From contig JAQIBP010000078.1 of the NCBI GenBank assembly GCA_027858995.1, forward strand, positions 1 to 55,724: a DNA stretch of 55,724 nt, read 5' to 3'. Below the pieces are notes generated by a model. It searched no databases. It was not told the origin of the DNA and worked only from the letters and a program-made list of their open reading frames with translations. This document shows positions 573 to 39,709 of this stretch, piece by piece (positions within the stretch are counted from its first letter, which is position 1; every line of letters starts with the position of its first letter). Made by a program: the position numbers and the translations under genes. This DNA comes from Deltaproteobacteria bacterium (GTDB lineage: Bacteria; Desulfobacterota; Desulfobacteria; Desulfobacterales; Desulfobacteraceae).

Positions 573-2312
573 TTAAAATTTCCTGAGTTCTTTATACTCC
601 TGCATCAGTTTATCCAATTCTGTTTCCGTAATGACGGCTCTGGAATCTTCAAGCGGTTTGTGAAAAGCACTGGGCAGTTTTTCTTGTTTTTTTGTCATCC
701 CTTCTCTTAAGTTGAATTCCCTTACTGATGCAGCAATATTTTGAGCTATACTGGACAAATTTTCTTTAGACCCGTCTATACCAGTTGTGCTTGTCACAAG
801 TTTATCCAGAAGCTCCCACGGATAGATGTCTCTAAAAAATTTACACAGAATCAGAGAGTCAAACAGGGTCAAGCGATCCTCAAAATCAATGAAAAGTTTT
901 GCCTTTCCTTCAATTTGATCCGGTTCTATCATGCCGGAAAGTTCTGGTTTGTAAAAAGTAGCCCTGAGATGACAGGCCCCCCTGTCAGAAGATGCATATG
1001 CAAGACCCATTCCCTTAAGTGTTCGAGGATCATATCCGGCCGGTTCCATGCCCTTTACGTGAACAGCCGTATCTTCCATGCCCCACAATTCTGCTGCATG
1101 ACGAATTCCCTTTGAGAGTGTCTTGCCAATTTCTTTTCGTTCTGAAATAAGGTGCAGCAAATCAGCAATACCGTCTGCATCGCCGAACTGGATGTTGTAA
1201 TCGGAATTACCCTGTTCAAAAGCCTTCATGGCAAAGGCCGCAATATTTCCGGCTGTTATTGTATCCATACCCAAACTGTCACAAAGATGATTAAGCCAGG
1301 CAATTTCTTCAATGGATTCCACCATGCAGAGACCACCAAAAGTATAAATCGTCTCATACTCAGGGCCTTCTATAATTAACCCCTTGTGTCGTCCTTTAAG
1401 AATTTTGGTCATCCGCCCACAGGATAAAAAACATTTTGCGCAAGCATTGGGCTTCACTTCGCACCTGTTGTGAAGAGCATCTGCAGAGATTTTTTCCCAA
1501 TGTTGGGCGCTTCCTTTGGACCAGTAGCGGGTCGGAAATGCACCTGCTTTATTCATGATTTTGACCATTTGTGATGTGCCCATGGTTTTGTAAGCATGAA
1601 CAACCGGATGGTTTTTAGATTCTGACGCCAAGTGCTTTGACAATTTGATCAATGCATTCTTATCGTAGGCGTGGCGTTTTTGGTTCCCGGTAAATAGGAT
1701 GGCCTTAAGGTTTTTAGCCCCCATGACTGTTCCGGTCCCCGCTCTTCCGGCGCACCGCCACCCATCATTTTTTATAGTCGCAAATCTTACACCATTCTCA
1801 GCTGCAGGGCCAATGACAACTGCCCCAGTTTTCCAGCTTTTATTCATGTTGGAAGTATAGGGCTTAACCGCTTTCTCAGTGTCAAAAGTATCCATTCCTT
1901 TAAGTGCAGATGCATCATGGTATTCGACACCGTTCGAGTGGATTTCCAAAAGAGACAACCTGTCAGCCTTCCCCTGGATCAATATAGCATCAAAACCAGT
2001 CGCGCTGATGGCTTCGGGTACTCGCCCACCAGAATAGGATTCAGCATAGAGATCGGTCAGGGGTGATTTGGTAAAAGCACCATACCTTGAAGACCCCCAG
2101 ACCAGCCCGCCTGTTGTCGGTCCAGTGGCAAAAATCAATTGGTTATCAGGTGATAGGGGGTTCACTCCGATAGGATTATTTTTAAGAAGCAGATGAGTTG
2201 CCAATCCTTTTCCACCCAGTGTTTTTTTAAGGACTTCGTCTTCTATCGGCAGTATTTCATAAGTTGTTTTTGTGAGATTAATCTTTAGCACTCTATTATA
2301 AAAGCCTTGCAT
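573..2312 (-). CDS. Tungsten-type aldehyde:ferredoxin oxidoreductase
   Basis: 579 residues, close to the family's usual ~600. The family oxidises aldehydes to carboxylates with a tungstopterin cofactor and a [4Fe-4S] cluster, passing electrons to ferredoxin in the cytoplasm. The N-terminal domain has the family look (GGKGLA near 33-38, SSRYGAF near 74-80). The cluster ligands are visible as C291-x2-C294-x3-C298, with a fourth cysteine at about 490. The acidic stretch EGPEYE near 315-320 is also typical. It is the last gene of the operon, downstream of an aminotransferase. An inferred role is oxidation of the semialdehyde made by that transaminase, in place of an NAD-dependent dehydrogenase. 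The family assignment is firm; the substrate is unknown. Confidence 0.93.
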   Translation of the reverse strand: MQGFYNRVLKINLTKTTYEILPIEDEVLKKTLGGKGLATHLLLKNNPIGVNPLSPDNQLIFATGPTTGGLVWGSSRYGAFTKSPLTDLYAESYSGGRVPEAISATGFDAILIQGKADRLSLLEIHSNGVEYHDASALKGMDTFDTEKAVKPYTSNMNKSWKTGAVVIGPAAENGVRFATIKNDGWRCAGRAGTGTVMGAKNLKAILFTGNQKRHAYDKNALIKLSKHLASESKNHPVVHAYKTMGTSQMVKIMNKAGAFPTRYWSKGSAQHWEKISADALHNRCEVKPNACAKCFLSCGRMTKILKGRHKGLIIEGPEYETIYTFGGLCMVESIEEIAWLNHLCDSLGMDTITAGNIAAFAMKAFEQGNSDYNIQFGDADGIADLLHLISERKEIGKTLSKGIRHAAELWGMEDTAVHVKGMEPAGYDPRTLKGMGLAYASSDRGACHLRATFYKPELSGMIEPDQIEGKAKLFIDFEDRLTLFDSLILCKFFRDIYPWELLDKLVTSTTGIDGSKENLSSIAQNIAASVREFNLREGMTKKQEKLPSAFHKPLEDSRAVITETELDKLMQEYKELRKF

Positions 2313-2430
2313 CTTTATCTTTTCCCTATTCTTCTTTCTTTTTACTGTATTGAGCTATTCTTTTATACCAACGACTTGTATGTTCTTTGATATACCTGTT
2401 ATGTGGTTAACTGAAGTTCCGTTCGAAAAT

Positions 2431-3435
2431 TTAAGTATGAATGGACATTGGATATTCTTGATCCATCAGGGTAAGTTGTGTTCCTTTGCCTTTTTTTACA
2501 GACTGTTCCAGAATTTTTTTTCCGATAGCAATATCATGAAGAGCTATACCCAAATTAAAATTAATAATTCGTTGGGAAGCATTCCTGCGGCCGGGATTTT
2601 TTTTAATGACGATTTTTCCAAGTTCTGCATCAGGCTCCAGAAAAGGTTCATAAACTTTTTTGGGTTTCATATAAGTACGGAACTGCTCCCAGTCATCCAC
2701 AAAAAATAGATCCATTTCAGATAAAATGTCTTTTTGCCAGCCATTCATGTGCACTGGGAGTACAAGAACGCCTTTTTTAAGCCATTTTGCCTTATAGATC
2801 GGTTTTTCAAGGTTTCCTGTGGCAGTGACCACTATATCCGCATTTTTTATCGCACCTTGGATATCTTCAGAGGCTTTTATTTTTAGCTCACAGTCTTTGC
2901 TGAAATGAGAAACAAAACCGTGAAGTGTTGGAGTGTGAACGTCATATACACTGACATTGCAAAGATCCGGAAGAACTTCTTTTAATGCAAGCAAATGGTA
3001 CCGTCCCTGAACACCAGCACCAATAATGGCAACGTTTTTTGCACCCGGTCTTGCAAGGAATCTGGCCGAGACACCCGAGACAGCTGCCGTTCTGAGAGCA
3101 GTAATATACCCGCCTTCCATTACTCCCAAAGGTTTTCCGGTCAACGGATCATTGATAATGATAAGCCCCATAATCGAAGGAAGATCATATTTGCGGTTAT
3201 CAGGGAACCCACTAACCCACTTCACACCAGCAGCTTGTTGAGCTGGCAGAAAACCAGGCATGGCATGAATAAAAGAATCCTCTGAAGGATGAATCCCTGG
3301 CTTTGGAGGATTTTCAAAATTTTTATTTCCATGTTCAATAAAAACATCATGGACGATCCCGATAACCTGGGACATTGTCAGCCCGACATCTAAAATATCT
3401 TTTTGGGATAAATACGTAAACTGAATTTTTTTCAT
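2431..3435 (-). CDS. Ornithine cyclodeaminase / mu-crystallin family protein
   Basis: 334 residues, full length for the family. Members are NAD(P)-dependent: ornithine or alanine dehydrogenases and cyclodeaminases, or ketimine reductases such as mu-crystallin. The Rossmann motif GAGVQG lies at 139-144. Lys72 and the ALRTAA segment near 113-118 correspond to the substrate- and cofactor-contacting parts of the family. The start is an ATG preceded by AAGGGAAG at good spacing. The gene lies between the ABC importer ATPase (16 bp upstream) and the aldehyde oxidoreductase (118 bp downstream). Family membership is clear. Whether it cyclises ornithine, reduces a ketimine or deaminates another amino acid cannot be told from sequence alone. 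Confidence 0.9.
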   Translation of the reverse strand: MKKIQFTYLSQKDILDVGLTMSQVIGIVHDVFIEHGNKNFENPPKPGIHPSEDSFIHAMPGFLPAQQAAGVKWVSGFPDNRKYDLPSIMGLIIINDPLTGKPLGVMEGGYITALRTAAVSGVSARFLARPGAKNVAIIGAGVQGRYHLLALKEVLPDLCNVSVYDVHTPTLHGFVSHFSKDCELKIKASEDIQGAIKNADIVVTATGNLEKPIYKAKWLKKGVLVLPVHMNGWQKDILSEMDLFFVDDWEQFRTYMKPKKVYEPFLEPDAELGKIVIKKNPGRRNASQRIINFNLGIALHDIAIGKKILEQSVKKGKGTQLTLMDQEYPMSIHT

Positions 3436-3450
3436 TTTCTTCCCTTAAGT

Positions 3451-4200
3451 TTAAAGATCTGTAATTGCCTTTAAAAAAATTTTTGTCCGCTCTTCTTTAG
3501 GATTTTCAAAAAAAGTTTTTGCGCTGCTTTCTTCAACAATTTCTCTGTCTTCAATCATCATGACCCTGTCCGCTACATTTTTTACAAAGTTAATCTCATG
3601 GGTAACCAGTACCATGGTCATCTTTTCTTCTGTTCTGAGTCGCTCGATAACATTGAGAACCTCTTCTTTCATTTCAGGATCTAACGCAGATGTTGGTTCA
3701 TCAAAAAGCATCAGGTCTGGCTTCATTGCCAGGGCTCGGGCAATAGCAACTCTCTGGCGTTGTCCTCCAGAGAGGGCACAGGGGTATTCATCTACTTTTT
3801 CAGGTATCCCGACGATTTCGAGAAGTCTCATGGCATCTTCTGTGGCCTGTTGTTTAGTTTTATTCAACAACTTCATCGGTGCAATGATGATATTTTTTAA
3901 CGTTGTCATATGAGGAAAAAGATTAAACATCTGGAACACCATACCAACTCTCTGGCGAAGCGCTCTTAATTCCTTTTGGGAAGCTCCCCTTAACTCGACA
4001 TTATCTATCCAGATCTGTCCTCCCTGAATGGTTTCCAATCCATTCAAACATCTTAACAGAGTGCTTTTACCACAACCACTAGGACCGCACAGCACAAGGA
4101 CTTCGCTTCTATTGATATCAAAAGAAATGTCTTCGAGTATGGTTGTCGACCCATATTTTTTTACAAGATTTCTTGCTTTTATAAAGCTTTCATTCGCCAT
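3451..4200 (-). CDS. Polar amino acid ABC transporter, ATP-binding protein (GlnQ-like)
   Basis: 249 residues, standard for the GlnQ/HisP subfamily. It powers amino acid import at the inner membrane. Walker A GPSGCGKST lies at 39-47, the signature LSGGQ at 143-147, and Walker B with the D-loop (LMLFDEPTSALDP) at about 163-175, followed by the H-loop histidine in VTHEI. The ATG follows a GAGGAG site. The gene sits 42 bp after the permease and 15 bp before the cyclodeaminase-family gene, inside one operon. The subfamily points to polar or charged amino acids as the cargo, which fits neighbours that act on diamino or opine-like compounds. The exact substrate is not determined. Confidence 0.94.
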   Translation of the reverse strand: MANESFIKARNLVKKYGSTTILEDISFDINRSEVLVLCGPSGCGKSTLLRCLNGLETIQGGQIWIDNVELRGASQKELRALRQRVGMVFQMFNLFPHMTTLKNIIIAPMKLLNKTKQQATEDAMRLLEIVGIPEKVDEYPCALSGGQRQRVAIARALAMKPDLMLFDEPTSALDPEMKEEVLNVIERLRTEEKMTMVLVTHEINFVKNVADRVMMIEDREIVEESSAKTFFENPKEERTKIFLKAITDL

Positions 4201-4242
4201 TACGTCCTGCTCCTCTTTTCTGAATGTTCTAAAAGACTGTCT

Positions 4243-4911
4243 TTAGATTGATTCCCATTTTCGCAATTTTTCAACTCTCCTCATCGCATAGGAGAATGAC
4301 CCTATTAACAGAATATAAATGATGGCTGCACCGGTATAAAGCTCAAGAGGCCTGAAAAATTGTACCGTTAATTCCTGCGCCCGAAACATAACCTCTGGAA
4401 CAGAAACAATCATTGTAATTGTCACATTTTTTAAATTGGTGATAAAAACATTTGTTAATGGCGGCAGGACAGAATAGACAGCCTGTGGAATAATGACAAA
4501 AAGTATAGTTTGGATCCTTGAAAACCCTAAAGAAAGGGATGCCTGATTTTGGGTTAATGGTATTGCTTCAAGTCCGCCCCTGAATGCCTCACAGGCAAGC
4601 GCACCGCCATTGAGAGAAAGGGCGATAATCGAACTCTGGGTAGGGCTGCCCCCCACATTGAAAAGAATCGGCATTACATAATGAATCCAAATTAACAAAC
4701 AAACCAAAGGAACGGTGCGGAAAATATCCACATAAATCAATGCAATGATTTTTAAAATTTTATTGTTTGATATCTGTAAAGTAGCGAAAAACAGACCGAG
4801 AACTATTGAAAAAAAGATACTGCCAAAACCAACCATACAGGTATACCCCAGACCGCCTGCCAGATATGGTGCATATTCTTTCAAGATACCGAATTGAAAA
4901 ACATAATCCAT
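4243..4911 (-). CDS. Polar amino acid ABC transporter, permease (HisM/GlnP-like)
   Basis: 222 residues with about five hydrophobic segments, typical of HisMQ/GlnP permeases. The EAA loop that docks to the ATPase is recognisable as EAFRGGLEAIPLTQNQASLSLG in the second half. The ATG at 4911 has a GAGGAG ribosome site 9 bases upstream. Only one permease gene is present, so the channel is probably a homodimer, as in some GlnP-type systems. It lies between the binding protein (120 bp upstream) and the ATPase (42 bp downstream). The gap on the binding-protein side may allow the periplasmic component to be made in excess. Confidence 0.93.
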   Translation of the reverse strand: MDYVFQFGILKEYAPYLAGGLGYTCMVGFGSIFFSIVLGLFFATLQISNNKILKIIALIYVDIFRTVPLVCLLIWIHYVMPILFNVGGSPTQSSIIALSLNGGALACEAFRGGLEAIPLTQNQASLSLGFSRIQTILFVIIPQAVYSVLPPLTNVFITNLKNVTITMIVSVPEVMFRAQELTVQFFRPLELYTGAAIIYILLIGSFSYAMRRVEKLRKWESI

Positions 4912-5031
4912 TTGTTAAATCTCCTCATGTATTTATTAGTCCATCTGTTTGGGAAAAAAGTTTTCAACTATTGGCAGCATCCATCTGATTCGACAAATGG
5001 ATGCTGCCAAGAAATAATATCTTTTGAGGTT

Positions 5032-5826
5032 CTAACGGCCAGTTGCCCATCCCTCAGGCATGTTCCATTTTTTTTCCAGTTCACTATACCATCCACGGGA
5101 TTGCATATTTCTAATGTAGGTGTTTAAAAATGACTGCAGATCAGCATCTGCATATCTTAATGCATGGGCTTGGAAGAACCAGACAGTGTTCTCAGGTATA
5201 AACACTTCAAGTGACTCAGGATGATCCTTAGCCCTTGAGGATTGGATCAATGAATCACTCATAAACGCCTGCGCTCGTCCTTGAAGAACTTCCAGCATAC
5301 AGGACATCGAATCTGCAAACGTTTGGATTTTTGCTTTTTTAAATTGTGTTTTCCACAACTCATGAGCGCTTGTTCCAGCTGTAACAGCGATAACATTCCC
5401 AGGTTGATCCAAGTCATCAAAGGACTTTATATTATTTTTTTTATTTACAAGGGCTGCTTCACAATAATTGCCGTATGGGATGGTAAAGGATACGGCCAGT
5501 GACCTTTTCGGAGTCGCCCCAAGACCGTTCATGATTGCATCCCATTTTCCAGCCTGCAATCCTGCAATCATACCTCCCCAGGTTGTTTTCATAATCTTAA
5601 CCTTGATACCGGTTACTTTTTCAAAATTTCGAAGGTCATCTGCAATAATTCCTTCATATTCACTGGTTTTTGGGTTAAACATAATAAAATTCTTCCAAGG
5701 TGCAACACCTACTTTAAGCGTCTTTTCAGCATTTATTTTGTCCATGATGGAGCCAGCAAAAGCAATCTGACAAAAAAACATACCAATAACAATCAGACCA
5801 GCAAAAATTGAAATTCCTTTTTTCAT
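5032..5826 (-). CDS. Periplasmic amino acid-binding protein of the ABC importer
   Basis: 264 residues, family-3 solute-binding protein (SBP_bac_3). A clear signal peptide covers about residues 1-24 (lysines, long hydrophobic stretch, AFAG cleavage region). The mature part shows the usual pattern KTLKVGVAPWKNF, then a WDAIMNGLG segment and a VAVTAGTSA-like lobe-switch segment. It would capture an amino acid or similar small cation or zwitterion in the periplasm and deliver it to the permease. A strong ribosome site (AGAGGAG) precedes the ATG. It lies 84 bp downstream of the opine-dehydrogenase-family gene. The ligand cannot be read from sequence. Confidence 0.92.
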   Translation of the reverse strand: MKKGISIFAGLIVIGMFFCQIAFAGSIMDKINAEKTLKVGVAPWKNFIMFNPKTSEYEGIIADDLRNFEKVTGIKVKIMKTTWGGMIAGLQAGKWDAIMNGLGATPKRSLAVSFTIPYGNYCEAALVNKKNNIKSFDDLDQPGNVIAVTAGTSAHELWKTQFKKAKIQTFADSMSCMLEVLQGRAQAFMSDSLIQSSRAKDHPESLEVFIPENTVWFFQAHALRYADADLQSFLNTYIRNMQSRGWYSELEKKWNMPEGWATGR

Positions 5827-5910: not shown

Positions 5911-7002
5911 CTATTTATCCCCGGTCTTTACATACTGAACCAATTGATCTGCATCCATTCCAAGAATTCCACACACCTCCAATGTTCTGCCGGTTTTCGA
6001 AAAATTACGATCAAGTACAGCCTCAGCTATGTGGATAACCGATTCCATGAGTTTGACGTTGACGCCTAATTGTTTACCAATCTGTGAGTAGCACAGAAGC
6101 CCAATGGGAACATCTTCGGTAAGATAGCGGTTATCAAGTTCAGCAGGTCCTTTAACTCCCATCAATGGTTTTACACCACGGATTACCTGCCAGAAGTTTT
6201 CGCCTTTAGGGCCGTATTTCATTATGGGATAGGTATCTATCAGAGAAAGCAGGTTTAGGCCCAGCGCTTTTCCAATATTGACCCGTTCTTGATCTATTTT
6301 TTCAACAGCATTACACACTCCTGGAGTTAATCCTTCTTCATAATAATAAAATTCTCCATGACTGTATTCTATTCGACCTGCATTAAGGAGAATCCCTAAA
6401 CAGTGAAGGGTTGGGTTTGGATTTGAAAGGCCTGCTTCAAGAACATCTCGCATGGTTTCAATCCCTGGATATACATCTCTCATGATGGGCATGATCCGTT
6501 CTTTTTTGACTGCAGGAAATACCCCCATTGATAGGACAGCCCTTCGTCCAAATATTTTTACAGTATCCGGGCTGATAATACGTGTGGCATAGGGGAGTGC
6601 CGCAAAATCAGAAACAGTGATGTCTTTTGAGATACCTTGACATTGCATCTCCTGAATAAACTCTAAAGATCCCATTGAACCCGGCATAAATACAATATTA
6701 TGACCATCCTCAAGAACAGGGGCTAACAATCTTGTGTAGGCAAGGTGAAAAATGGTTGGAACAATAATGATAATGACATCAGATCCGGTAACGGCCTCGT
6801 TGATATCGAAGGTTACTTTTTCGATGGTTGCATTTCCTTCAATTTCCCCGATTGACTTAATGATTTTGTTCTCTTTTATTTTAGACACGCTATCGGCAAA
6901 TTGAGGCATTTCATAAATTGTAACTTTATGTCCTCTGAGAGCAATCTCTGCAGCAGCAGAGCGGGCACCATTTCCTCCACCAAGTATTGTGACATTCCGC
7001 AT
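5911..7002 (-). CDS. NAD/NADP octopine/nopaline dehydrogenase family protein
   Basis: 363 residues. The N-terminal dinucleotide fold begins at residue 3 with GGGNGA (8-13), which is the opine dehydrogenase version of the motif. The C-terminal half carries the octopine dehydrogenase-type helical domain: the LHCLGILLNAGRIE region near 198-211 and the EEGLTPGVCNAVEKIDQER region. Known members join or split an amino acid and a 2-keto acid through a secondary amine, reversibly with NAD(P)H. In a gene set with an importer and an aminotransferase, a catabolic (splitting) role is an inference. The ATG is preceded by GGAG. It sits 44 bp downstream of the aminotransferase. Confidence 0.87.
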   Translation of the reverse strand: MRNVTILGGGNGARSAAAEIALRGHKVTIYEMPQFADSVSKIKENKIIKSIGEIEGNATIEKVTFDINEAVTGSDVIIIIVPTIFHLAYTRLLAPVLEDGHNIVFMPGSMGSLEFIQEMQCQGISKDITVSDFAALPYATRIISPDTVKIFGRRAVLSMGVFPAVKKERIMPIMRDVYPGIETMRDVLEAGLSNPNPTLHCLGILLNAGRIEYSHGEFYYYEEGLTPGVCNAVEKIDQERVNIGKALGLNLLSLIDTYPIMKYGPKGENFWQVIRGVKPLMGVKGPAELDNRYLTEDVPIGLLCYSQIGKQLGVNVKLMESVIHIAEAVLDRNFSKTGRTLEVCGILGMDADQLVQYVKTGDK

Positions 7003-7046: not shown

Positions 7047-8354
7047 CTAATTTATAATGGATAGTCCTTCTTCAATTATTGAAAGCCCTTTATCCAATTC
7101 CTTGTCTCCAATTACCAGTGGCATCAGTAAACGGATGACATTGCCAAAAGTACCGCAGGACAGAATGATCAGGCCCCTGTCATAACAGAATTGCACAAGT
7201 TCTTTTGTTTTGTCCGGTGCAGGTTCTTTGGTTTCCCTATCTTTTACCAGTTCCATTGCCATCATAGGGCCTTTTCCTCTAACATCTCCTATAACATCAT
7301 ATTTGGTTTGAAACGCTTTCAGGCTTTGATTTAATTTTTTCCCGAGGATATACGATTTTTCTAAAAGGTTTTCATTCTCAAAGACTTCCAGGACAGCAAG
7401 GGCTGCACTACAGGCCAGTGGATTTCCACCATAAGTCCCCCCGATGCCTCCTGCATGGACGCTATCCATGATTTCTTTTTTCCCGACAACAGCGCTTAAC
7501 GGCATACCTGCAGCAAGGCTTTTTGCAACGGTTGTAATGTCTGCACTGACACCCCATTGTTCCATGGCAAACATGGTTCCCGTTCGCCCGATCCCAGTCT
7601 GTATTTCATCGGCAATAAATAAAATTCCGTTTTTTTCACATATCTTTTTGAGTTTTAAAAAATATTCAGGCGGCGGACTGATAAACCCTCCTTCCCCCTG
7701 CACTGGTTCAACAATAATGGCAGCTGTTTGATCCGGATTAACATGGGTAAGAAAAAATTCGTTCAGATAGTCTGCACAAGCAGTGTTACAGGTTGGATGA
7801 GAAAGTTTAAAAGGGCATCGGTAACAATACGCATACGGCATACGATAGACTTCAGCGGCAAATGGTTCGAACCCATATTTGTATGGTTTTATTTTACTCG
7901 TAAGGGACATCCCCATATTGGTTCGACCATGAAAAGCATTATCAAATGCAATAATTCCGGTTCTTTTAGTGTAATACCTGGAAATTTTTATTGCATTCTC
8001 AACCGCTTCCGCACCACTGTTCAAAAAGATAGCGGATTTGTCGAAATCGCCCGGCATTAAATTACATAGTTTTTCGGCAAGATGTATCACCTGTTCGTAA
8101 GGTAAAACCATGAAACAGGTATGGATGAAGTTGTCCAGTTGTTTTTTCATGGCAGCGATTACATGCGGATGTGAATGGCCGACATTCATTACAGCTATAC
8201 CACCAGCAAAATCGATGTATTCATTGTTATCAATATCAAATATTTTTACACCTGACGCTTTTTTCACATAACAGCGTGTGCTACTGGCAAATCCTTTTGC
8301 AATATAAGTATTACGAAGCTTTTCAAGAATTTTTAAATTATACTCTGTAGTCAT
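7047..8354 (-). CDS. Class III aminotransferase (4-aminobutyrate/diamino acid type)
   Basis: 435 residues, full-length fold-type I PLP enzyme of the GabT/ArgD/ornithine aminotransferase group. Visible features are NSGAEA (112-117), FHGR (141-144), the cofactor-binding Asp249 in ADEIQTG, and the Schiff-base Lys278 in TTVAKSLAAGMPL. A cysteine-rich insert at 177-193 (CYRC...C...C) is also present. Such enzymes convert omega-amino groups to semialdehydes. It is the first gene of the operon. Its ATG has GGAG 8 bases upstream and lies about 38 bp downstream of the predicted start point of the sigma-54 promoter. GabT, lysine or ornithine specificity is unresolved. Confidence 0.93.
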   Translation of the reverse strand: MTTEYNLKILEKLRNTYIAKGFASSTRCYVKKASGVKIFDIDNNEYIDFAGGIAVMNVGHSHPHVIAAMKKQLDNFIHTCFMVLPYEQVIHLAEKLCNLMPGDFDKSAIFLNSGAEAVENAIKISRYYTKRTGIIAFDNAFHGRTNMGMSLTSKIKPYKYGFEPFAAEVYRMPYAYCYRCPFKLSHPTCNTACADYLNEFFLTHVNPDQTAAIIVEPVQGEGGFISPPPEYFLKLKKICEKNGILFIADEIQTGIGRTGTMFAMEQWGVSADITTVAKSLAAGMPLSAVVGKKEIMDSVHAGGIGGTYGGNPLACSAALAVLEVFENENLLEKSYILGKKLNQSLKAFQTKYDVIGDVRGKGPMMAMELVKDRETKEPAPDKTKELVQFCYDRGLIILSCGTFGNVIRLLMPLVIGDKELDKGLSIIEEGLSIIN

Positions 8355-8401
8355 TTTTTTTCTCCAGTCCTAATGAAAGTGTACAGTCTGACGATCTATA
8401 C

Positions 8402-8420
8402 ATGCTAAATCTATGCCAAT
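8402..8420 (-). promoter_or_regulatory. Predicted sigma-54 (-24/-12) promoter of the aminotransferase operon
   Basis: Read on the minus strand, the sequence is TTGGCATAGATTTAGCAT, with GG and GC separated by exactly 10 bases. It matches TTGGCACGN4TTGCW at most positions (TTGGCA complete, TAGC for TTGC). The GC dinucleotide lies at 8404-8405 and the expected transcription start is near 8392. The adjacent upstream gene encodes a sigma-54 activator, which supports the call. Confidence 0.75.
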
Positions 8421-8493
8421 GGATTTTTTAATAAAAAAATGTTTAAAATTCATATAGTTGCTTGAAGTTTATATAGGAAGGCAAAAAACAGAT

Positions 8494-8513
8494 TTGGTGA
8501 AATTTCGCACCAA
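8494..8513. promoter_or_regulatory. Upstream activator site 1 (TTGGTG-N8-CACCAA)
   Basis: The sequence is TTGGTGAAATTTCGCACCAA, a perfect 6+6 dyad with an 8-base spacer. Its centre lies about 110 bp upstream of the predicted sigma-54 start point, the normal distance for an enhancer-binding protein site. It is the promoter-proximal member of three sites with the same architecture. Confidence 0.65.
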
Positions 8514-8564
8514 TTTTTTAGAGAAAATCGATACAATAATGCTATTTTGAAAGCCTTTCAACCT

Positions 8565-8584
8565 CTGGTGCAAAACAACACCAA
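8565..8584. promoter_or_regulatory. Upstream activator site 2 (CTGGTG-N8-CACCAA)
   Basis: The sequence is CTGGTGCAAAACAACACCAA, with the same dyad and spacer as site 1 apart from one base in the left arm. Its centre is about 180 bp upstream of the predicted start point. Together with site 3 it forms one large inverted repeat, so two activator dimers could bind close together. Confidence 0.65.
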
Positions 8585-8592
8585 AAAATAAA

Positions 8593-8612
8593 TTGGTGCT
8601 ATCATGCACCAG
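8593..8612. promoter_or_regulatory. Upstream activator site 3 (TTGGTG-N8-CACCAG)
   Basis: The sequence is TTGGTGCTATCATGCACCAG, the same dyad with one base changed in the right arm. It overlaps the last codons of the activator gene and is 28 bp from site 2. Its centre is about 210 bp upstream of the predicted start point. Confidence 0.6.
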
Positions 8613-10365
8613 AGGTTGAAAGGCTGTATTTTTTTAATTTTCGAACAACTGTTGAGTGGTCTATTTCCATTTTTTTAGCAATCTCTCTTGTTGTTCGACA
8701 AATTTTCAACATATGAAGCAAAATATCTTTCTCATAAGCCATCATAGCGTTTTTAAAATTAAAAACATTTACTTCTTCAGGGTTGAAAGGCTTTATAATT
8801 TCTGTTGTCAGTCTGAAATCTTTTAGCAGATGCTCATCTAAGTACCTTGAGTCACTCAGAACCACGCCTTTTTTTATAATGTTTTTTAGTTCTCTCACAT
8901 TACCGGGAAAATTGTATTTTTGTATCATGCTGAATGCTTCAAAGCTGATTTTTTTTTGTGCCTGAAATTGTTTGTTATATTTATCCAAATAGTGATTCAC
9001 TATGTCAAAGATATCTTCAGGCCTTTCTCTAAGGGGCGGCATGGTAATTGTAAACGTATTTATTCGATAAAATAAATCTTGCCGAAATCGCTTCTGTTTA
9101 ACACGAGATTCCAAGTTTCTGTTAGTAGCTGCAATAATAGTACAATCAATCTTGCGGGGTTTAATGCCGCCGACCCTCATCACCTTTTGGTCATCAAAAT
9201 ATTTTAGCAATTTACTTTGCAATACAAGGGGGATCTCTCCTATTTCATCAAGGAACAGTGTCCCGTTTTCAGAAAGCTCAATAAGCCCAGGTTTCCCATT
9301 GCTTCTTGCTCCTGTAAAAGCCCCTTTTTCATATCCAAATAATTCGGCTTCTAAAAGGTTATCCGGCAGCGCTGCGCAATTTATTTGCATAAAGATCTTG
9401 TTTTTTCGTCTGCTGTTTTTATGGATAAATTTTGCCATTAATCCTTTGCCGGTTCCACTTTCTCCAAGTAAGAGGATATTTGACACTTCCATGTGTGAGA
9501 GTTTAAGTGCTATTTTCAGCACGGATTGAATTGCTTCACTTTCTCCAACCACATCCTGCTTTTTCATTTCCTGTAGATTCATTTCCTGTAAAACATTTCT
9601 CAGCCTATCAGATTCTTCTAAACTCTTTTCCAGTTTTTCCTTGATAATATTCAATGATGTAAGATCACGGGAATTTATGACAACCAGGGAGATTTCCCCG
9701 CTTTCATTAAAAACCGGGGTTCCAGTAGCTAAAATTTTATTTTTGGTTTTTTTTACATTTTGAACAATGGTAACTTGTTTTTTCTTTTTCAGCACTTGGG
9801 TAGTGACGGATTTGTCAAACATCCCCCTCTGTATCAATTCGTCTACTTTTTTACCAATAACATCCTGCTTTCTTATTTTATTCAGTTTCTCTGATGCTTT
9901 ATTGATGTTTACTACATAGCCTTGTCCATCACAAACCCACAAGGCATCAGATACAGACTGAAAAATTGCATTCAATTCTTTATTTTGGGACTTATAAAAT
10001 TCTAATTTTTTAGCCGCCTGTTCAAATAAAATTGTTTGTTGAAAACTGACAACTATCCCAAGAAATAAATCTTTCTCTTTTATTGTGGAAATATTCAGGA
10101 TGATACTTATTCCTTTCTCTGTTATTTGCTGCCCAAGAATATCATCTTTATTTTTTAAAGCATCGGTTGCTATTTTGCCAATTTCAGGCAAGGACTTGGA
10201 GATAGACTCTCCTCTCATTTCCTGTTTTTTTATCCCCAAAATCGCGAAAGCCTTTTCATTAGTGCTTAAGATAGTTCCTTCGGTGTCAATAATAATCTTA
10301 CCATTATTGGTCGCATTAAATATATGCTCAGGGCATATCTGATTAAAAACATTTTCTTTTTTCAA
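8602..10365 (-). CDS. Sigma-54-dependent transcriptional activator with two PAS domains
   Basis: 587 residues. The order is PAS (about 12-110), PAS (about 130-240), AAA+ sigma-54 interaction domain (about 272-500) and C-terminal helix-turn-helix (about 555-580). The AAA+ domain has Walker A GESGTGKG (301-308), the sigma-54 contact loop GAFTGA (348-353) and Walker B GTLFLDE (368-374). The HTH (REIAKKMEIDHSTVVRKL) resembles the TyrR/PrdR type found on amino-acid-catabolism activators. There is no receiver domain, so it probably senses a small ligand through a PAS domain. The start appears to be TTG with AAGGA upstream. It probably drives the operon beginning at 8354 through the three dyads in between. 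Confidence 0.93.
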   Translation of the reverse strand: MKKENVFNQICPEHIFNATNNGKIIIDTEGTILSTNEKAFAILGIKKQEMRGESISKSLPEIGKIATDALKNKDDILGQQITEKGISIILNISTIKEKDLFLGIVVSFQQTILFEQAAKKLEFYKSQNKELNAIFQSVSDALWVCDGQGYVVNINKASEKLNKIRKQDVIGKKVDELIQRGMFDKSVTTQVLKKKKQVTIVQNVKKTKNKILATGTPVFNESGEISLVVINSRDLTSLNIIKEKLEKSLEESDRLRNVLQEMNLQEMKKQDVVGESEAIQSVLKIALKLSHMEVSNILLLGESGTGKGLMAKFIHKNSRRKNKIFMQINCAALPDNLLEAELFGYEKGAFTGARSNGKPGLIELSENGTLFLDEIGEIPLVLQSKLLKYFDDQKVMRVGGIKPRKIDCTIIAATNRNLESRVKQKRFRQDLFYRINTFTITMPPLRERPEDIFDIVNHYLDKYNKQFQAQKKISFEAFSMIQKYNFPGNVRELKNIIKKGVVLSDSRYLDEHLLKDFRLTTEIIKPFNPEEVNVFNFKNAMMAYEKDILLHMLKICRTTREIAKKMEIDHSTVVRKLKKYSLSTSGA

Positions 10366-11324: not shown

Positions 11325-11518
11325 ACTTAAATAAAGCTTATCCAAGTCATCTGCCTTATCATGATTTTTTTATTCCTGCCAATTTTATACAAATTGAACT
11401 TATCCAATAAATTTGATAAAATATATTTTTTCTTTTTTTTACCAGATAGAACATGGTCGTTATTTAATTTGCAATAATGCTCTGGAACTCGAACTTATTA
11501 AAGGAGTCAATACTACCT

Positions 11519-13219
11519 ATGATCCATAGAATAATCATTTTTTTAAGTCTCATATGTTTCATCTGTTCAAGCGGTAATATTACTGCAAAAACCAGTGGTA
11601 ATAAGAGTGAAGATAACAAAGCTGCAGCATCAGAGAATAAGGATATCAATTCAGAATCTGATCTGACTAAGACATCCCTTGAAATGCTGCATTCCATTAT
11701 TACGCTTAAAAAAGATCTGAAAAAGCTAATTTCACAAAAAAAAATGGAGCTTGGCAAAAGTGTTTCCCAGGCTGAACAACTGTCCATTAAAGCTGAATTG
11801 GATAAACTGGATCAGTCACTTGCTGATGCTGATTTTGATTTTGAAAGAATTGCAACCGGTGTTGATGTTGTTTTGCTGGAAGAAAAAAAAAAAATACCTT
11901 TTAATTGGAAAGATGAGATAGTTTCCCTTGTTGAACCTGGGATCAAAGAACTCAAAAAGATGACGAAAAAAGCCAGGGATAAGACAAAATTCAAGGATAA
12001 ATTATCTTCTTTTCAGAAACTGCTCCCCATTGTCAGAAAAGCCAATAAAAATCTTCAGGATTTGATTTTAAAAACCAGTGATACAAATTTGAAAAAAAAT
12101 ATTAAAAAACTGGTGCCCGAGTGGCAGGGGATTGAGAATCAACTCCAGCATAAGGTTGAAATCATTCAATTGGAGCTGGCGGAAATGCAAGCCCAGGAGC
12201 AGTCATTGGTTGAATCCACCCAGGTTTCCATTAAAAATTTTTTCAAGAACCGGGGCTTTTTCCTGTTTATTGCTCTAATTGCATGCATAGGCCTTTTTTT
12301 GTTTCTGCGATTCTCCTATTTGTTCACGATTAAATATATCCCGGGATATAATGCAAAATACCGTCCCTTTCACATAAGAGCACTGGATCTTTCTTTCCGG
12401 ATGATGACCGTTGTTTTGATTATGTTTGTTCTTATTCTGGTATTTTACAGTTTTGAGGATTGGGTTCTGCTTTCTCTTACCATAATTTTTTTTCTAGGTC
12501 TTGGCTGGACTGTCAAAAATACCCTGCCTAAATTCTGGCATCAGAGCCGGCTGATGCTCAATGTCGGAGCTGTAAGGGAAGGAGAACGAATTACCCTTCA
12601 CGATGTGCCATGGCTGGTAAAACATATTAATGTGTTTACTATGGTTGAAAATCCTTATCTTGGCATCACACTTAGGCTACCCATTGAAAAATTATTGGAT
12701 AAGGTCTCCCGCCCCTTTCATAAAACTGAGCCCTGGTTTCCATGTAAGAGAAATGACTGGGTGATTCTGGCAGACGGTACAAGAGGATGCGTGACCAGCC
12801 TGTCCCATGAAATAGTGGAGCTGGTTCAGCGCGGCGGTGCCAGAAAAGTCTATCAAACTTCTGATTTCCTTGCCCAGTCACCTTTGAATCTCTCTGCAAA
12901 TTTCAGGCTGAAAATTCCTTTTGGCATCTCCTATGATCTCCAGGCCATATCAACAAACAGGGTTCTGGATACTCTGGACAGCTATATCCGGGATAAAATT
13001 GAGCAAGAGGGCTATGAAAAATCTATGTTGAATCTCAGGGTTGAATTTTTCCAGGCTGGCGGATCTTCCCTTGACCTTGTGGTAATTGCTGATTTTAAGG
13101 GAGAGATGGCACACTTGTATAACAGGTTATCCAGGGCTATCCAGAGATGGTGTGTGGATGCCTGTACTGAAAACAACTGGGAAATTCCCTTTCCCCAGCT
13201 TACGGTGCATAAAAAATAG
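11519..13219 (+). CDS. MscS-like mechanosensitive channel family membrane protein
   Basis: 566 residues from the ATG at 11519, preferred because AAGGAG lies upstream and a signal-like segment (IIIFLSLICFIC) follows at once; an in-frame ATG at 11477 would add 14 residues. A long, charged, probably coiled-coil periplasmic part (about 40-230) is followed by three hydrophobic segments (about 244-262, 292-312 and 318-336). Then comes a beta domain and a cytoplasmic alpha/beta domain ending EIPFPQLTVH, the classic MscS C-terminal pattern. Such channels open under membrane tension to release solutes. Only 13 bp separate it from the helicase gene, so the two are probably co-transcribed. Confidence 0.85.
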   Translation: MIHRIIIFLSLICFICSSGNITAKTSGNKSEDNKAAASENKDINSESDLTKTSLEMLHSIITLKKDLKKLISQKKMELGKSVSQAEQLSIKAELDKLDQSLADADFDFERIATGVDVVLLEEKKKIPFNWKDEIVSLVEPGIKELKKMTKKARDKTKFKDKLSSFQKLLPIVRKANKNLQDLILKTSDTNLKKNIKKLVPEWQGIENQLQHKVEIIQLELAEMQAQEQSLVESTQVSIKNFFKNRGFFLFIALIACIGLFLFLRFSYLFTIKYIPGYNAKYRPFHIRALDLSFRMMTVVLIMFVLILVFYSFEDWVLLSLTIIFFLGLGWTVKNTLPKFWHQSRLMLNVGAVREGERITLHDVPWLVKHINVFTMVENPYLGITLRLPIEKLLDKVSRPFHKTEPWFPCKRNDWVILADGTRGCVTSLSHEIVELVQRGGARKVYQTSDFLAQSPLNLSANFRLKIPFGISYDLQAISTNRVLDTLDSYIRDKIEQEGYEKSMLNLRVEFFQAGGSSLDLVVIADFKGEMAHLYNRLSRAIQRWCVDACTENNWEIPFPQLTVHKK

Positions 13220-13232
13220 AAAAGGTTTGATT

Positions 13233-15593
13233 TTGGCAAAATCCAAAGCAGAGAAAAAAAAACAGAAACGAAAAGCAAAGAAGAAACAGGTCAAATTATC
13301 AAGATTAAAAAAGACAGCAAAGAAAAATGGCTGGTTCCATCTTGATGAGGCCCACTATTTTATAAGTATAGACAATATGGATCGGGCTGTAAAATCCATT
13401 AAAAAAGCAGCCAGAGTACTTCCCAATGAAGAAGATGTTTTTATGGCAATGGGACATATCGGCCAATATATGGAAGATACTGCCCTGGAACTTGATGCCA
13501 TGGCAGGTATGGATAAAATTGGAAAAATAACCGATGAGATGAAAATTGACAGGATTATCAAGCTTGTTAACCTGGAAAGATTTCATGAATGCACCAAAGA
13601 AGCCAAAAAGGTATTGAGTGAATTTGCCAGACTTAAACTTAAAGGTAAGAGAAAAACCAAGGCCCAGATAGAGGAGATAATTGAATATTGTAATTTAGTG
13701 ATTTCTGCTGAACAAGAAGAGGCAAAGTTTACAAAAAACTCTTTTGATCCTGATCATCAAAAGAGGAAAACAAAACATGCAAAAGAAGATCAAATCTTAA
13801 ATGATCTTAAAAAAAAGAAGAACGCTGAAAACAAGCAGCAATTAATAAAATCTTCTGACATTCCAAAAGTTCCTGTAACCTGTAAGATTGATAAAAATTC
13901 TTTTTTTAAAGCCTTGTCAGATCCTGAACCTGCAAGTCCGGAAAAGTATGAACTTGCTCTGTTGAGTCATCGGATTCGTTTTACTGAATCCTTTGAAACA
14001 CTTATCTGTCTCTCTTCTCTTACCGAGGTGAAATCATTCTGGTACCAGGAAGAGACTGCAAAAAAAGTATTAAAGCAGTTCAGGGGAAGGGCAATGCTGT
14101 CCGATGAAGTCGGCCTTGGCAAGACTATTGAAGCCTTGATCATATTTCTGGAATACATCAAAAGAGGCATGGTCAAGACAGCTCTGATTTTGACCCCTAC
14201 TCCTCTTGTCAGCCAGTGGAAAGAGGAGATAAAATTAAAATTTAACATGGATATTCCCTCGACAAATGATCCAGGGTTTAAATCAGGTTCCAAAAAATTC
14301 TGGAAAAACCCTTTTGTTATTGCATCCATTAACCATGCCAAATCAAAGAAGAATTTTGATATTATAACTGCAAGAAATTATGATATGATCATTGTTGATG
14401 AGGCTCATCATTTAAAGAACAGAACCACCCTGAACTGGAAGCTTGTCAACTCCCTGAAAAAAAGATTTATCCTTCTTTTAACGGCAACACCTGTGGAAAA
14501 CAATCTCATGGAGCTTTACAACCTCATTACCCTGCTAAAACCGGGTCAGCTTGATACTGCCACAGCATTCAGGGAGAAATTCATGAAACGGGGAGATCCT
14601 ACTGACCCCAGGAATCGCGTTCTTCTCAAGGAGTTGCTTGATCAGGTTATGATCCGTAATACAAGGGCATTGGCAGGAATTCATATTCCTCCGAGATTTG
14701 CCGAGACCATACGCATTGAGCCTGTAAAAGCTGATAAGGTGTTTTATGAGAGATTGGAAGCTTTGATTATCTCCCTGAATGAAAAAAAGCAGGGCAGGGC
14801 AAAAATGGTTGTTAAAAATTTGCTGGCACAGGCAGGTTCTTCACCAAAGGCCGTAGAATTGACCCTTGGCAGAATGCTTGAAAAAGAAAACTATCTTTTT
14901 GAACATGAAGAAGAACTCAGGGCAGTGAAGAACTTGTGCAGAACTACTCTGGATACACCCAAGAACAAGGCCCTGATGAAGGTGATCAAAGCCACCAGAG
15001 AGAAGGTTATTGTTTTTGTTAAATATAGAGGGACAATTGAGCATCTTGCTGAATTTTTAGAGTGGAACAATCTATCCTTCTCTCTTTTTCACGGCTCAAT
15101 GAACAACCGTCAAAAAGATGAGGCTATTGAGGTTTTTAAAAATAAGACCCAGGTATTGGTCACAACAGAAATCGGAGGTGAGGGAAGAAACCTCCAGTTT
15201 TGTTCAAGAATGGTTAATTATGATTTACCATGGAATCCCATGAAAATAGAACAGAGAATTGGCCGTATTCACAGGATAGGCCAGGAGAATCAAGTGCAGA
15301 TTTTTAATTTTTGTGCTGCAGGTTCCATTGAGGATTATATTCTTGATGTCCTTGATCGGAAGATTAATATGTTTGAAATGGTAATTGGCGAGATAGACAT
15401 GATCCTGGGGCGTGTCAGAGGGGAGAAGGAGTTTAGTGAAATGGTCTATGATATCTGGATGAATTCAAAGACAGAGCAGGATCGGAAAAAATCTTTTACA
15501 AACCTGGGTGCAAGATTGAAAAGGGCTAAGATTGGGTATCATAAAACCCGTGAACTGGATGATAAATTATTTGGTGACACCTATGAACTCTGA
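13233..15593 (+). CDS. SNF2/HepA-type DNA helicase or translocase with a TPR-like N-terminus
   Basis: 786 residues from a TTG at 13233, chosen because AAAAGG lies 7 bases upstream and the previous gene ends at 13219. The N-terminal ~20 residues are extremely lysine-rich, then a TPR-like helical segment follows (about 32-110). The SNF2 core has Walker A in SDEVGLGKT (about 290-298), DEAH at 389-392 and a C-terminal RecA lobe with the GRIHRIGQ motif VI. It resembles RapA/HepA-like Swi2/Snf2 ATPases that move along duplex DNA and displace bound proteins. It overlaps the next gene by 11 bp, implying joint function. The substrate is unknown. Confidence 0.9.
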   Translation: MAKSKAEKKKQKRKAKKKQVKLSRLKKTAKKNGWFHLDEAHYFISIDNMDRAVKSIKKAARVLPNEEDVFMAMGHIGQYMEDTALELDAMAGMDKIGKITDEMKIDRIIKLVNLERFHECTKEAKKVLSEFARLKLKGKRKTKAQIEEIIEYCNLVISAEQEEAKFTKNSFDPDHQKRKTKHAKEDQILNDLKKKKNAENKQQLIKSSDIPKVPVTCKIDKNSFFKALSDPEPASPEKYELALLSHRIRFTESFETLICLSSLTEVKSFWYQEETAKKVLKQFRGRAMLSDEVGLGKTIEALIIFLEYIKRGMVKTALILTPTPLVSQWKEEIKLKFNMDIPSTNDPGFKSGSKKFWKNPFVIASINHAKSKKNFDIITARNYDMIIVDEAHHLKNRTTLNWKLVNSLKKRFILLLTATPVENNLMELYNLITLLKPGQLDTATAFREKFMKRGDPTDPRNRVLLKELLDQVMIRNTRALAGIHIPPRFAETIRIEPVKADKVFYERLEALIISLNEKKQGRAKMVVKNLLAQAGSSPKAVELTLGRMLEKENYLFEHEEELRAVKNLCRTTLDTPKNKALMKVIKATREKVIVFVKYRGTIEHLAEFLEWNNLSFSLFHGSMNNRQKDEAIEVFKNKTQVLVTTEIGGEGRNLQFCSRMVNYDLPWNPMKIEQRIGRIHRIGQENQVQIFNFCAAGSIEDYILDVLDRKINMFEMVIGEIDMILGRVRGEKEFSEMVYDIWMNSKTEQDRKKSFTNLGARLKRAKIGYHKTRELDDKLFGDTYEL

Positions 15594-22737: not shown

Positions 22738-23435
22738 AAGATGAAGCCCATATTGCAGATGGGATCAGATTAAACCTCTCCATTCAGGGCTATGAAGTCA
22801 AGATTGCTCAAGATGGGATTTCAGGCCTGGAGTTATGGAGATCATGGCAACCGGATCTGATTATTCTTGATATTATGCTGCCCATGATTGACGGGTTTTC
22901 CATTTTAAAAACTATTCGAAAGGAAGATGAAAAAATTCCAGTACTTATACTTTCTGCCAGAGGTGATACAAAAGATATAGTTAAAGGGCTCAAATATGGT
23001 GTGGATGACTATTTATCAAAACCTTTTGATCTTGAGGAATTTCTTTTAAGAATTGAAAGACTGCTCAAAAAAAAGACCTGGTTTAAAAATGATAATAAAG
23101 ATAATAATCTTGAGTATAAAATATTTAAAGGGGATTCTTATAGTTTTGGCAATAACCATATTGATTTTATCACTTTTAAAGCAAGTTGTGCAGCAGGTGA
23201 GATTGTTTTAACAGAACAGGAGATTGTTCTGCTCAAACTTTTTATCGGCAATAAGGGTAAACCACTCTCCCGGGAAATGCTGCTGACTGTTGGCTGGGGA
23301 TATTCCAAGGATACCACCACAAGAACAGTGGATAATTTTATTGTCAGATTTAGAAAATATTTTGAAAAAAAGCCTAAAAACCCGGTTTATTTTATCAGCA
23401 GGCGGTTGGTGGGGTATGTGTTTGACCATGATTAG
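22701..23435 (+). CDS. OmpR-family response regulator
   Basis: 244 residues. The receiver domain has Asp57 as the phosphorylation site (LIILDIMLP), the acidic pair E13-D14 and the conserved lysine in LSKPFD. The C-terminal winged helix (about 150-242) shows LTEQEIVLLKLF, then RTVDNFIVRFRKYFE and VGYVF, typical of OmpR/PhoB DNA-binding domains. It is translated from within the kinase gene, as expected for a cognate pair. Its last 41 bases overlap the 3' end of brxA on the other strand. Targets are unknown; the upstream aminotransferase is a candidate for regulation or for the signal. Confidence 0.93.
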   Translation: METIDKKRILVIEDEAHIADGIRLNLSIQGYEVKIAQDGISGLELWRSWQPDLIILDIMLPMIDGFSILKTIRKEDEKIPVLILSARGDTKDIVKGLKYGVDDYLSKPFDLEEFLLRIERLLKKKTWFKNDNKDNNLEYKIFKGDSYSFGNNHIDFITFKASCAAGEIVLTEQEIVLLKLFIGNKGKPLSREMLLTVGWGYSKDTTTRTVDNFIVRFRKYFEKKPKNPVYFISRRLVGYVFDHD

Positions 23436-24189
23436 TCAAAATAACCATGTTAATCATCTCTTCACCCGGACTAAACTGATTCACATTAATTCTTGAGCAA
23501 TGTTTTTGTACATAACCAGCTGTTATTGGAGAGGTTTGAAATGGGAACAGAGTTGGTGAATTCAGAGTTCCTTTCAAGGAAAGTGAAGATTCAGGAGAAG
23601 CCAGCAATAAGCTTTCCACTAATAGAAGGGTTTGATTCTGCTCGACTGAATCTTTTTTATTTTGTGCATAAATTCCCTTAATAGAAGTATCTTTTAGAAT
23701 ATCCCAGGCAACAAACGATCGAATAACATACCGCGCATAACGGCTGATGGTTTGTCTGTCGCCATATTGTTCTTTAAGTCGCTGAATAATTTGTTTTTTT
23801 GTAATTTGATCCTGGAGATTTAATAACCGTCCGATCTGTTTTGCCACTCCAGCCCAAAAAGGGTAAGCAGCGCTTATCATGGCCCAATGCAAAGGCAGTC
23901 TTGTTTTGTCACTATTTTTTTTTGCATAGTTCAATGCAGCATCCCTGAATGGTTTTGTGTCTTTATCTGGATTGCACCATGTCTGCATTAAAATACTGAT
24001 AGCTATTATATAAGTTTTTTTTCCTCTTGTACCAGTACCGCCACTCTGTTTTTTATCAGCAAGATAAGTGTTTAATTCATCTCTGATCTCATTTTTTGAC
24101 ATGCCAGCAAGGACCATATCCAAAGTTTTGTCCATCCATTCCAGGCGGATCACATGTTTTATGCCTATTTTTTTATGCCTGTTACTCAT
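23395..24189 (-). CDS. brxA: BREX protein BrxA (DUF1819 family)
   Basis: 264 residues. The N-terminal half (GTRGKKTYIIAISILMQTW, then LPLHWAMISAAYPFWAGVAKQIGRL) and the middle (YGDRQTISRYARYVIRSFVAWDILKD) fit BrxA, a small helical, DNA-binding BREX component. It is the last gene of a type 3 BREX operon, and its ATG overlaps the pglZ stop (ATGA). The last ~13 residues are encoded opposite the response regulator's 3' end and look unrelated to a conserved domain. The natural stop was probably lost when the cluster inserted or was trimmed. The call leans on both sequence and position. Confidence 0.82.
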   Translation of the reverse strand: MSNRHKKIGIKHVIRLEWMDKTLDMVLAGMSKNEIRDELNTYLADKKQSGGTGTRGKKTYIIAISILMQTWCNPDKDTKPFRDAALNYAKKNSDKTRLPLHWAMISAAYPFWAGVAKQIGRLLNLQDQITKKQIIQRLKEQYGDRQTISRYARYVIRSFVAWDILKDTSIKGIYAQNKKDSVEQNQTLLLVESLLLASPESSLSLKGTLNSPTLFPFQTSPITAGYVQKHCSRINVNQFSPGEEMINMVILTNHGQTHTPPTAC

Positions 24190-29133: not shown

Positions 29134-29227
29134 AGCGGAACCAAAACACGAAAGGCACAAAAAGATTGAAAAACAGACTTGGTAACAAATTTGTGATTAA
29201 GTCGATGTTGTATGCATTCAAACTTAG

Positions 29228-30985: not shown

Positions 30986-31098
30986 AATTATGCAATTATT
31001 CCATTTTTGATCACAAAAAAGCTGGTATTATGATTTGTTGAAAACTGATAAAAATTATACTGTTTTCAATATTTACAATTAAAGACATGTTAAATTCA

Positions 31099-31758: not shown

Positions 31759-31762
31759 TGGC

Positions 31763-33055: not shown

Positions 33056-33057
33056 GA

Positions 33058-35931: not shown

Positions 35932-35945
35932 ATCTTAAACCTTTT

Positions 35946-39677: not shown

Positions 39678-39709
39678 GACTTGCCAGCCTTTTTATATAA
39701 TTACTTAAA

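Follow-up and report, generated by a model that had tools for sequence, protein, structure and literature searches.

Arrays of operators that lie beside the genes for their own sigma-54-dependent activators are well known (PMC4641369, PMC6615313). In the parts of these two studies considered here, upstream activator site (UAS) arrays of sigma-54 enhancer-binding proteins were reconstructed in Desulfovibrio (PMC4641369) and in Clostridiales (PMC6615313), with the enhancer motifs derived one orthologous group at a time. The locus described here is carried on a 55,724-nucleotide stretch of DNA from a member of the Desulfobacteraceae (contig JAQIBP010000078.1; "the window" refers to this whole stretch), in which three dyads, D1 to D3, lie between the genes for a sigma-54 activator and a class III aminotransferase (Table 1). 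It has in common with the known arrays an activator gene beside its target, a -24/-12 promoter and upstream inverted repeats, in what are mostly local, one-operon regulons. The operator letters differ. The UAS half-sites commonly given in these studies are TGT/ACA, 9–12 bp apart, those of PrdR included, and in the portion of the Clostridiales study used here the PrdR/NifA type has TGT and ACA half-sites 10–12 bp apart (PMC6615313), whereas the half-sites of the window read TTGGTGC and those of its relatives mostly TTGATTC; TGT-N10-12-ACA is matched by none of the three window dyads. We consider it very probable, from sequence comparison, that the neighbouring sigma-54 activator has its upstream activator sites in these dyads, a predicted cognate array that appears to have switched in sequence together with its activator.

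A preliminary description of this DNA, made from the sequence alone, did not recognise the motif as a described operator. Our literature search, mostly at title level and with figures and supplements outside its scope, agrees: neither TTGGTG-N8-CACCAA nor TTGATTC-N6-GAATCAA was found as a sigma-54 operator, and no residue-base code was found for these activators. In the part covered, a mutagenesis study of LuxO lists critical residues of helix 3 and gives no residue-base pairing (PMC11407668). Within the literature searched, this suggests that the operator sequence, its proposed respecification and the proposed residue-base rule are new here, and we note that the GATTC-type motif may already stand in the motif figures or supplements of the regulon papers (PMC4641369, PMC6615313).

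Table 1. Features of the activator-aminotransferase locus and the presumed target operon
Feature	Position	Strand	Remarks
Aldehyde ferredoxin oxidoreductase	573-2312	-	presumed operon part
Ornithine-cyclodeaminase-family protein	2431-3435	-	presumed operon part
Amino-acid ABC transporter	5032-5826, 4243-4911, 3451-4200	-	presumed operon part
Presumed operon remainder (ABC transporter to aldehyde ferredoxin oxidoreductase)	573-5826	-	
Octopine/nopaline-dehydrogenase-like protein	5911-7002	-	presumed operon gene
Class III aminotransferase (GABA transaminase family)	7047-8354	-	first gene, predicted target operon
sigma-54 promoter TTGGCATAGATTTAGCATG	8401-8419	-	GG-N10-GC, -24/-12
Dyad D1 TTGGTGCGAAATTTCACCAA	8494-8513	-	promoter-proximal; exact TTGGTG-N8-CACCAA
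Possible relic of ancestral middle GAT-type site AAATAGCATTATTGTATCGA	8528-8547	-	right half intact
33-nt inverted repeat	8552-8625	.	arms 8552-8584 and 8593-8625, 8 nt apart, 88% complementary; D2 and D3 inside
Dyad D2 TTGGTGTTGTTTTGCACCAG	8565-8584	-	one outer-base mismatch to TTGGTG-N8-CACCAA
Dyad D3 CTGGTGCATGATAGCACCAA	8593-8612	-	one outer-base mismatch; spans activator stop TGA (8602-8604)
PAS-AAA+(GAFTGA)-HTH sigma-54 activator	8602-10365	-	587 aa as listed, TTG start
Helix-turn-helix codons for TREIAKKMEIDHSTVVRK	8638-8691	-	recognition helix starts at His570 (8656-8658) in model

The control region and its activator

All three dyads are on the minus strand, between the activator stop codon and the aminotransferase ATG. 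They had been described as three copies of TTGGTG-N8-CACCAA with a 6-8-6 architecture; this stands for D1, the sole exact occurrence in the 3.98-Mb assembly, and not for D2 and D3, each of which has one outer mismatch, and because all three have TGGTG-N8-CACCA the common pattern is 5-8-5. A GGT core, and G at positions 4 and 6, are present in all six half-sites. The dyad cluster is far above chance: when the 262-bp region was shuffled 20,000 times with dinucleotides preserved, TGGTG-N8-CACCA was absent from 19,998 of the results and occurred once in each of the other two. The motif as such is not enriched, since there are three matches with up to two mismatches in the 55.7-kb window against 3.38 expected, and nine sites with up to one mismatch genome-wide (three of them at this locus) against eight for the reversed control. 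The -24/-12 promoter reported on the minus strand upstream of the aminotransferase gene is present, with GG-N10-GC and 9 of 12 consensus letters, and its GC lies 50 bp ahead of the aminotransferase ATG. From the promoter position, transcription is expected to start near 8392; measured from this point, the dyads are centred about 111, 182 and 210 bp upstream, in agreement with the earlier estimates of 110, 180 and 210 bp, and the first base of D1 is 95 bp from the -24 TGG.

The activator has PAS matches, an AAA+ sigma-54 interaction domain (PF00158, 211.7 bits, with GAFTGA in the sequence) and a C-terminal helix-turn-helix (HTH; PF18024 HTH_50, 28.5 bits, just above the cut-off of 27). PrdR is its best-scoring named family (NF041552, 396.8 bits against a curated cut-off of 795), and TyrR (NF008085) scores 238.5 bits against a cut-off of 576. 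AAA+ and HTH are common to PrdR, TyrR and the window activator, but because both scores are well below the curated thresholds we describe it as PrdR/TyrR-like and not as PrdR or TyrR. In an AlphaFold2 model the recognition helix begins at His570 (model residue 53; mean pLDDT, the predicted local distance difference test score, of 97 for residues 51–60), and the predicted base-reading residues are Arg560, Asp569, His570, Ser571 and Arg575. The top structural matches of the model are Fis (3iv5, Z 7.6, root-mean-square deviation 4.8 over 58; 1etw, Z 7.5, 1.5 Å over 52), and the DNA-binding domain of NtrC4 is also among them with a modest score. According to the part of the source covered, Arg85 of Escherichia coli Fis (3iv5), the first recognition-helix residue, makes the critical contact with G at ±7 and Asn84 touches ±4 (PMC4784862); Fis chooses its sites mostly by DNA shape and one conserved G, whereas the window activator apparently reads up to four letters per half-site. 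The HTH of the window activator, TREIAKKMEIDHSTVVRK, compares with mostly TRExAxxLGISQPTVVRK in its relatives. The first recognition-helix residue is Gln in all 55 relatives of a first set and His only in the window (1 of 56), and His is found at this position in no other of 96 activators scanned.

A similar three-site layout in related genomes

Relatives were sought in a family sample of 86 genomes and an order sample of 389 genomes, the genome of the window being included in each; a class sample largely overlapped the latter. Full-length activator matches in the family are at most 43% identical, 20 other genomes of the order sample match the activator at E<=1e-150, and a scan of genome contigs yielded a single distant relative. 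Directly downstream of the activator gene, eight order-sample loci have an aminotransferase 65–68% identical to that of the window, and the same arrangement is seen in L128, from outside the class (66%), and in L011, from the same genus (62%). The operon as a whole is unusable for footprinting, as matches to its opine-dehydrogenase-like gene elsewhere are only distant.

Conservation of the same dyads in orthologous gaps, proposed as a check in the preliminary description, was not borne out: TGGTG-N8-CACCA occurs in none of the nine syntenic activator-aminotransferase gaps scanned (L011 and the eight order-sample loci), though eight of the nine contain one or more 20-bp dyads whose halves have GAT in place of GGT, and the ninth (L094) has a mixed array of GAACC/GGTTC, GATTC and GATGC halves. 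The pattern is likewise absent from 29 activator loci of the family (L007–L035) and from a further 24 loci (L090–L113). Across the family sample, exact copies number 22, spread over 20 genomes, which is close to chance as the reversed control gives 19; of the 21 copies outside the window 19 were checked and have no activator or aminotransferase match in their flanks. With a count near chance and no such match in the flanks checked, the literal motif looks private to the window locus.

What the gaps of the relatives hold is another dyad, TTGATTCA-N4-TGAATCAA. Exact GATNC-N6-GNATC was found 70 times against 0.27 in shuffles over 54 loci (the window and 53 relatives, in 360-bp stretches, with only 28 bp for L009), all 70 of them in relatives. 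Three 20-bp dyads of this type, with up to one mismatch, follow the activator gene in 34 of 54 relatives, at spacings of 64–70 and 55–61 bp, and L128 and L129, both from outside the class, also show such arrays. A dyad overlaps the activator stop codon in 23 of 54 relatives, as D3 does in the window. Relative to that stop codon the sites start at -11, +17 and +88 in the window and at -12, +56 and +115 in L091, so that the first site is in place but the window spacings, 28 and 71 bp, depart from those of the relatives. The distance from the last site to the promoter is 95–97 bp in L090, L091, L097 and L098 and 80–91 bp in L094, L096 and L102 (L100 has no promoter above threshold); it is 79–105 bp in 20 of the relatives in which a promoter was found. 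Because the start of the first site and the promoter distance of the last match those of such relatives, D3 and D1 appear to be at ancestral positions, with the middle site displaced. The sequence of the sites is not shared, as the GAT core is found in none of the six window half-sites and a position-weight matrix of the GAT type misses the window dyads (scores -1.5 to 0.2, within the shuffle range). A paralogue in the same genome (46% identity) has no GAT-type array after its gene and no GGT dyad, with up to one mismatch, on its contig. The earlier view of the region as a sigma-54 control region with operators for the neighbouring activator is nevertheless supported by positional homology in many relatives, together with a correspondence between helix and operator.

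Recognition-helix residues and operator letters

The flanks of 96 activator genes (that of the window, 55 of the first set and 40 more) were scanned for the best repeated dyad of the NNTNC type, with GAT not assumed, and an array was taken as clear where there was a single answer with a score of at least 4.5 over both flanks, the 99.9% level of shuffles being 3.5 per flank. Only positions 3, 4 and 6 are tested in this way, because NNTNC fixes positions 5 and 7. Clear arrays were obtained for 43 activators, a number that includes the window and a T-run artefact, L144 (TTTTC). An unrestricted 5-mer scan was tried and rejected, being swamped by A/T runs in some loci and in the window itself (TTTTT, ATTTT).

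An Arg in helix 2 is accompanied by G3 in 35 of 35 clear arrays, and G3 occurs in none of the eight without it (Fisher 6.9e-9, relatedness ignored); the residues replacing Arg are Ala, Ser, Thr, Tyr and Leu. L104, with Tyr, has AATTC three times at 0, +65 and +122, and among activators that have no Arg L148, L152 and L161 have TATGC and L141 has TATTC. His at the first position of the recognition helix is accompanied by G4 in its single case and G4 is seen in none of the 42 arrays without His, and Ser at the next position is accompanied by G6 in 8 of 12 arrays, against 2 of 31 without Ser (Fisher 1.2e-4, relatedness again ignored). The sequences thus show a good correspondence of Arg with G3, and a tendency for Ser to go with G6.

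We note two further types of array. In L145, where the helix is HPTT, exact ATTGC-N6-GCAAT dyads occur three times, at about -20, -2 and +78 from the activator stop codon, a further operator type. Upstream of the activator genes of L148, L152, L161 and L141, dyads with halves of TATGC or TATTC are repeated in tandem at an interval of exactly 19 bp, a different geometry.

A structural precedent for the window residues is found in the human protein SETMAR. Among sequences of solved structures, the top match to the C-terminus of the activator is SETMAR 7s03 (E 0.0014, TTREVAEEMNVNHSTVVRHLKQ, 14 of 23 residues identical, or 13 of 23 in the natural protein if Met423 is, as is probable, the engineered L423M). 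With Foldseek the second HTH of SETMAR (HTH2) is superposed at 1.5 Å over 35 columns with 46% identity (E 1.2, not significant alone), and SETMAR is not among the best 50 rows of the structural search in which Fis came out on top. In the part of the source covered, SETMAR was crystallised on GGTTGGTGCAAAAG..., with contacts on GGTTGGTGC of R417 to G5, H427 to G6 and S428/R432 to G8:C9, and contacts in one such complex are said there to be a poor guide to related complexes (PMC9062482). Mapped on TTGGTGC, the SETMAR contacts would place Arg on G3, His on G4, and Ser with Arg on G6:C7, which is the window half-site. The SETMAR/Hsmar1 HTH2 and the window activator thus have a TTRE...NHSTVVR helix-turn-helix and the target letters TTGGTGC in common, but the SETMAR domain belongs to a eukaryotic transposase, has two HTH motifs and forms a different dimer, and the resemblance is probably convergence and not homology.

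In its fullest form our proposal is a positional code for the Fis-type sigma-54 activators of this family, in which helix-2 Arg specifies G3, Gln A4 or His G4, Ser G6 and an invariant Arg C7, combined with a complete A-to-G respecification of a three-site enhancer whose array was rebuilt by inverted duplication, convergent with a domesticated human transposase in the letters of both protein and DNA; we think this whole about as likely to be right as wrong.

Proposed origin of the array and alternative explanations

The simplest history of the array is one of change in place, decay and inverted duplication, in an order of events that is suggested by the comparison with relatives. The two outer sites, D1 and D3, would have been altered in place while the middle site decayed, and D2 would be a new site made by inverted duplication of D3; on the window lineage, operator position 4 would have changed from A to G together with replacement of Gln by His as the first residue of the recognition helix. 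D2 is the probable product of a duplication, in inverted orientation, that took in D3 and its flank. A candidate relic of the middle site lies 54 bp past the stop codon, where the middle sites of relatives are mostly at about +50 to +71. What points to a relic is one half-site that is intact and close to where it would be expected; dinucleotide shuffles produce such a half-match at a rate of 0.003 near that place and 0.029 anywhere, and as a full dyad the candidate scores poorly with the position-weight matrix (-4.1).

We infer binding, activation, the contact of His with G, the order of events and the signal as follows. A Fis-type C-terminal dimer would read each half-site T1 T2 G3 G4 T5 G6 C7, with Arg560 reading G3, His570 reading G4, and Ser571 with Arg575 reading G6:C7. 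Bound oligomers, with their AAA+ ring, would loop to E-sigma54 at the promoter and switch on the aminotransferase operon once a signal is sensed by the PAS domains. The class of site would be ancestral, with TTGATTCA-N4-TGAATCAA at similar places in relatives. If true, a residue-to-base rule would allow UAS to be predicted from protein sequence and might account for the separation of numerous activators of this kind within one genome. The locus also looks like an enhancer caught in the course of rewiring, in which two sites would have been modified where they stood, one would have decayed and another would have been created.

Several observations weigh against this interpretation. D2 and D3 are not independent sites, both being inner parts of the 33-nt inverted repeat. 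No more than 26 of 53 relatives yielded a promoter, and in six of these the last site is 146–347 bp from it; 53 of the 96 activators scanned gave no clear array at the threshold. The Fisher values overstate the correspondence because the activators are related: in a quick tree from which the last 60 residues were excluded (42 of the 43 rows, L144 being left out), Arg and G3 change only four times each, and an independent-pairs test of Arg with G3 finds two supported pairs, both in agreement (p 0.5), and cannot reach significance. For Ser and G6 the three pairs give averages of 1.4 in agreement, 0.1 in disagreement and 1.5 with no difference. L094, with an SQSS helix, keeps Arg and Gln yet has mixed half-sites, L168 (Gln) scored GCTGC, and His with G4 is a single case, albeit one with a structural precedent. 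The structural scores are modest (Z below 8, a size that can reflect common arrangements), and the SETMAR match, with modest scores and no homology shown, may be partly luck. In the portion of the Desulfovibrio study considered, resemblance between DNA-binding domains is reported not to be matched in every case by resemblance between binding motifs (PMC4641369). Binding of the dyads by the activator, and activation, are predictions at the level of sequence.

Three other explanations need to be weighed. The dyads, chiefly D2 and D3, could be RNA hairpins that end the activator transcript and not protein sites. Three terminator-like hits were obtained where shuffles give 0.2 (on the minus strand D3, followed by ATTTATTTTT, and on both strands D1), the inverted repeat on the minus strand is predicted to fold into an RNA hairpin at -57.0 kcal/mol, and between the sites of the orthologous locus L090 there is a GC-rich hairpin with a T-run. 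A terminator role does not explain the layout in relatives, however, because their dyads at similar places are AT-rich (TTGATTCA) and would make poor terminators; the promoter distance of D1 is kept and the half-sites fit the helix rule. We regard termination in place of protein binding as unlikely, and a double role as terminator and operator could coexist.

Somewhat less probable is that the motif derives mainly from local inverted duplication, with the number of sites lacking regulatory meaning. The 20-nt perfect match within the 33-nt arms favours it, but D1, the sole perfect dyad, is outside the repeat, D3 is placed where the first site of relatives is, and the half-sites of D2 are kept despite a spacer unlike that of D3. 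The preliminary description had taken kept arms and differing spacers as a sign of real binding sites; this holds for D2 compared with D3, and the argument is partly weakened by the resemblance of the pair to an inverted duplication. The least probable of the alternatives, by a little, is that a regulator other than the neighbouring activator binds the dyads, to which the exact operator's absence from all nine orthologous gaps scanned would lend weight. The layout is linked to the genes for this family of activators, both within the order and in two genomes from beyond the class, and the operator letters tend to track the helix residues of the neighbouring activator itself, both of which argue instead for an array read by that activator.

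Presumed target operon and other genes of the window

The products of the presumed target operon may take up and oxidise an N-substituted amino acid, opine-like or other. Its opine-dehydrogenase-like gene looks rare, with only distant matches (34–39% identity) in the family and order samples; such matches come from one other genome in one sample and, at E<=1e-70, from 2 of 388 other genomes of the order sample.

Elsewhere in the window, a 580-aa open reading frame (11477–13219) with no Pfam match at 1e-5 is overlapped at its 3′ end by an SNF2-type helicase gene (13086–15593 as listed), which is outside a BREX locus at 23395–40186. This locus, on the minus strand, has matches to BrxF, BrxC, PglXI, BrxHI, PglZ and BrxA, and we take it to be of type III. 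Nested within it are a HEC-01 A/B-like pair (31099–33055) and a gene for a 585-aa protein (29228–30985) with a weak match only. Further to the right, two genes of the 4′-phosphopantetheinyl-transferase family (45974–46711 and 52544–53092) lie about 6 kb apart.

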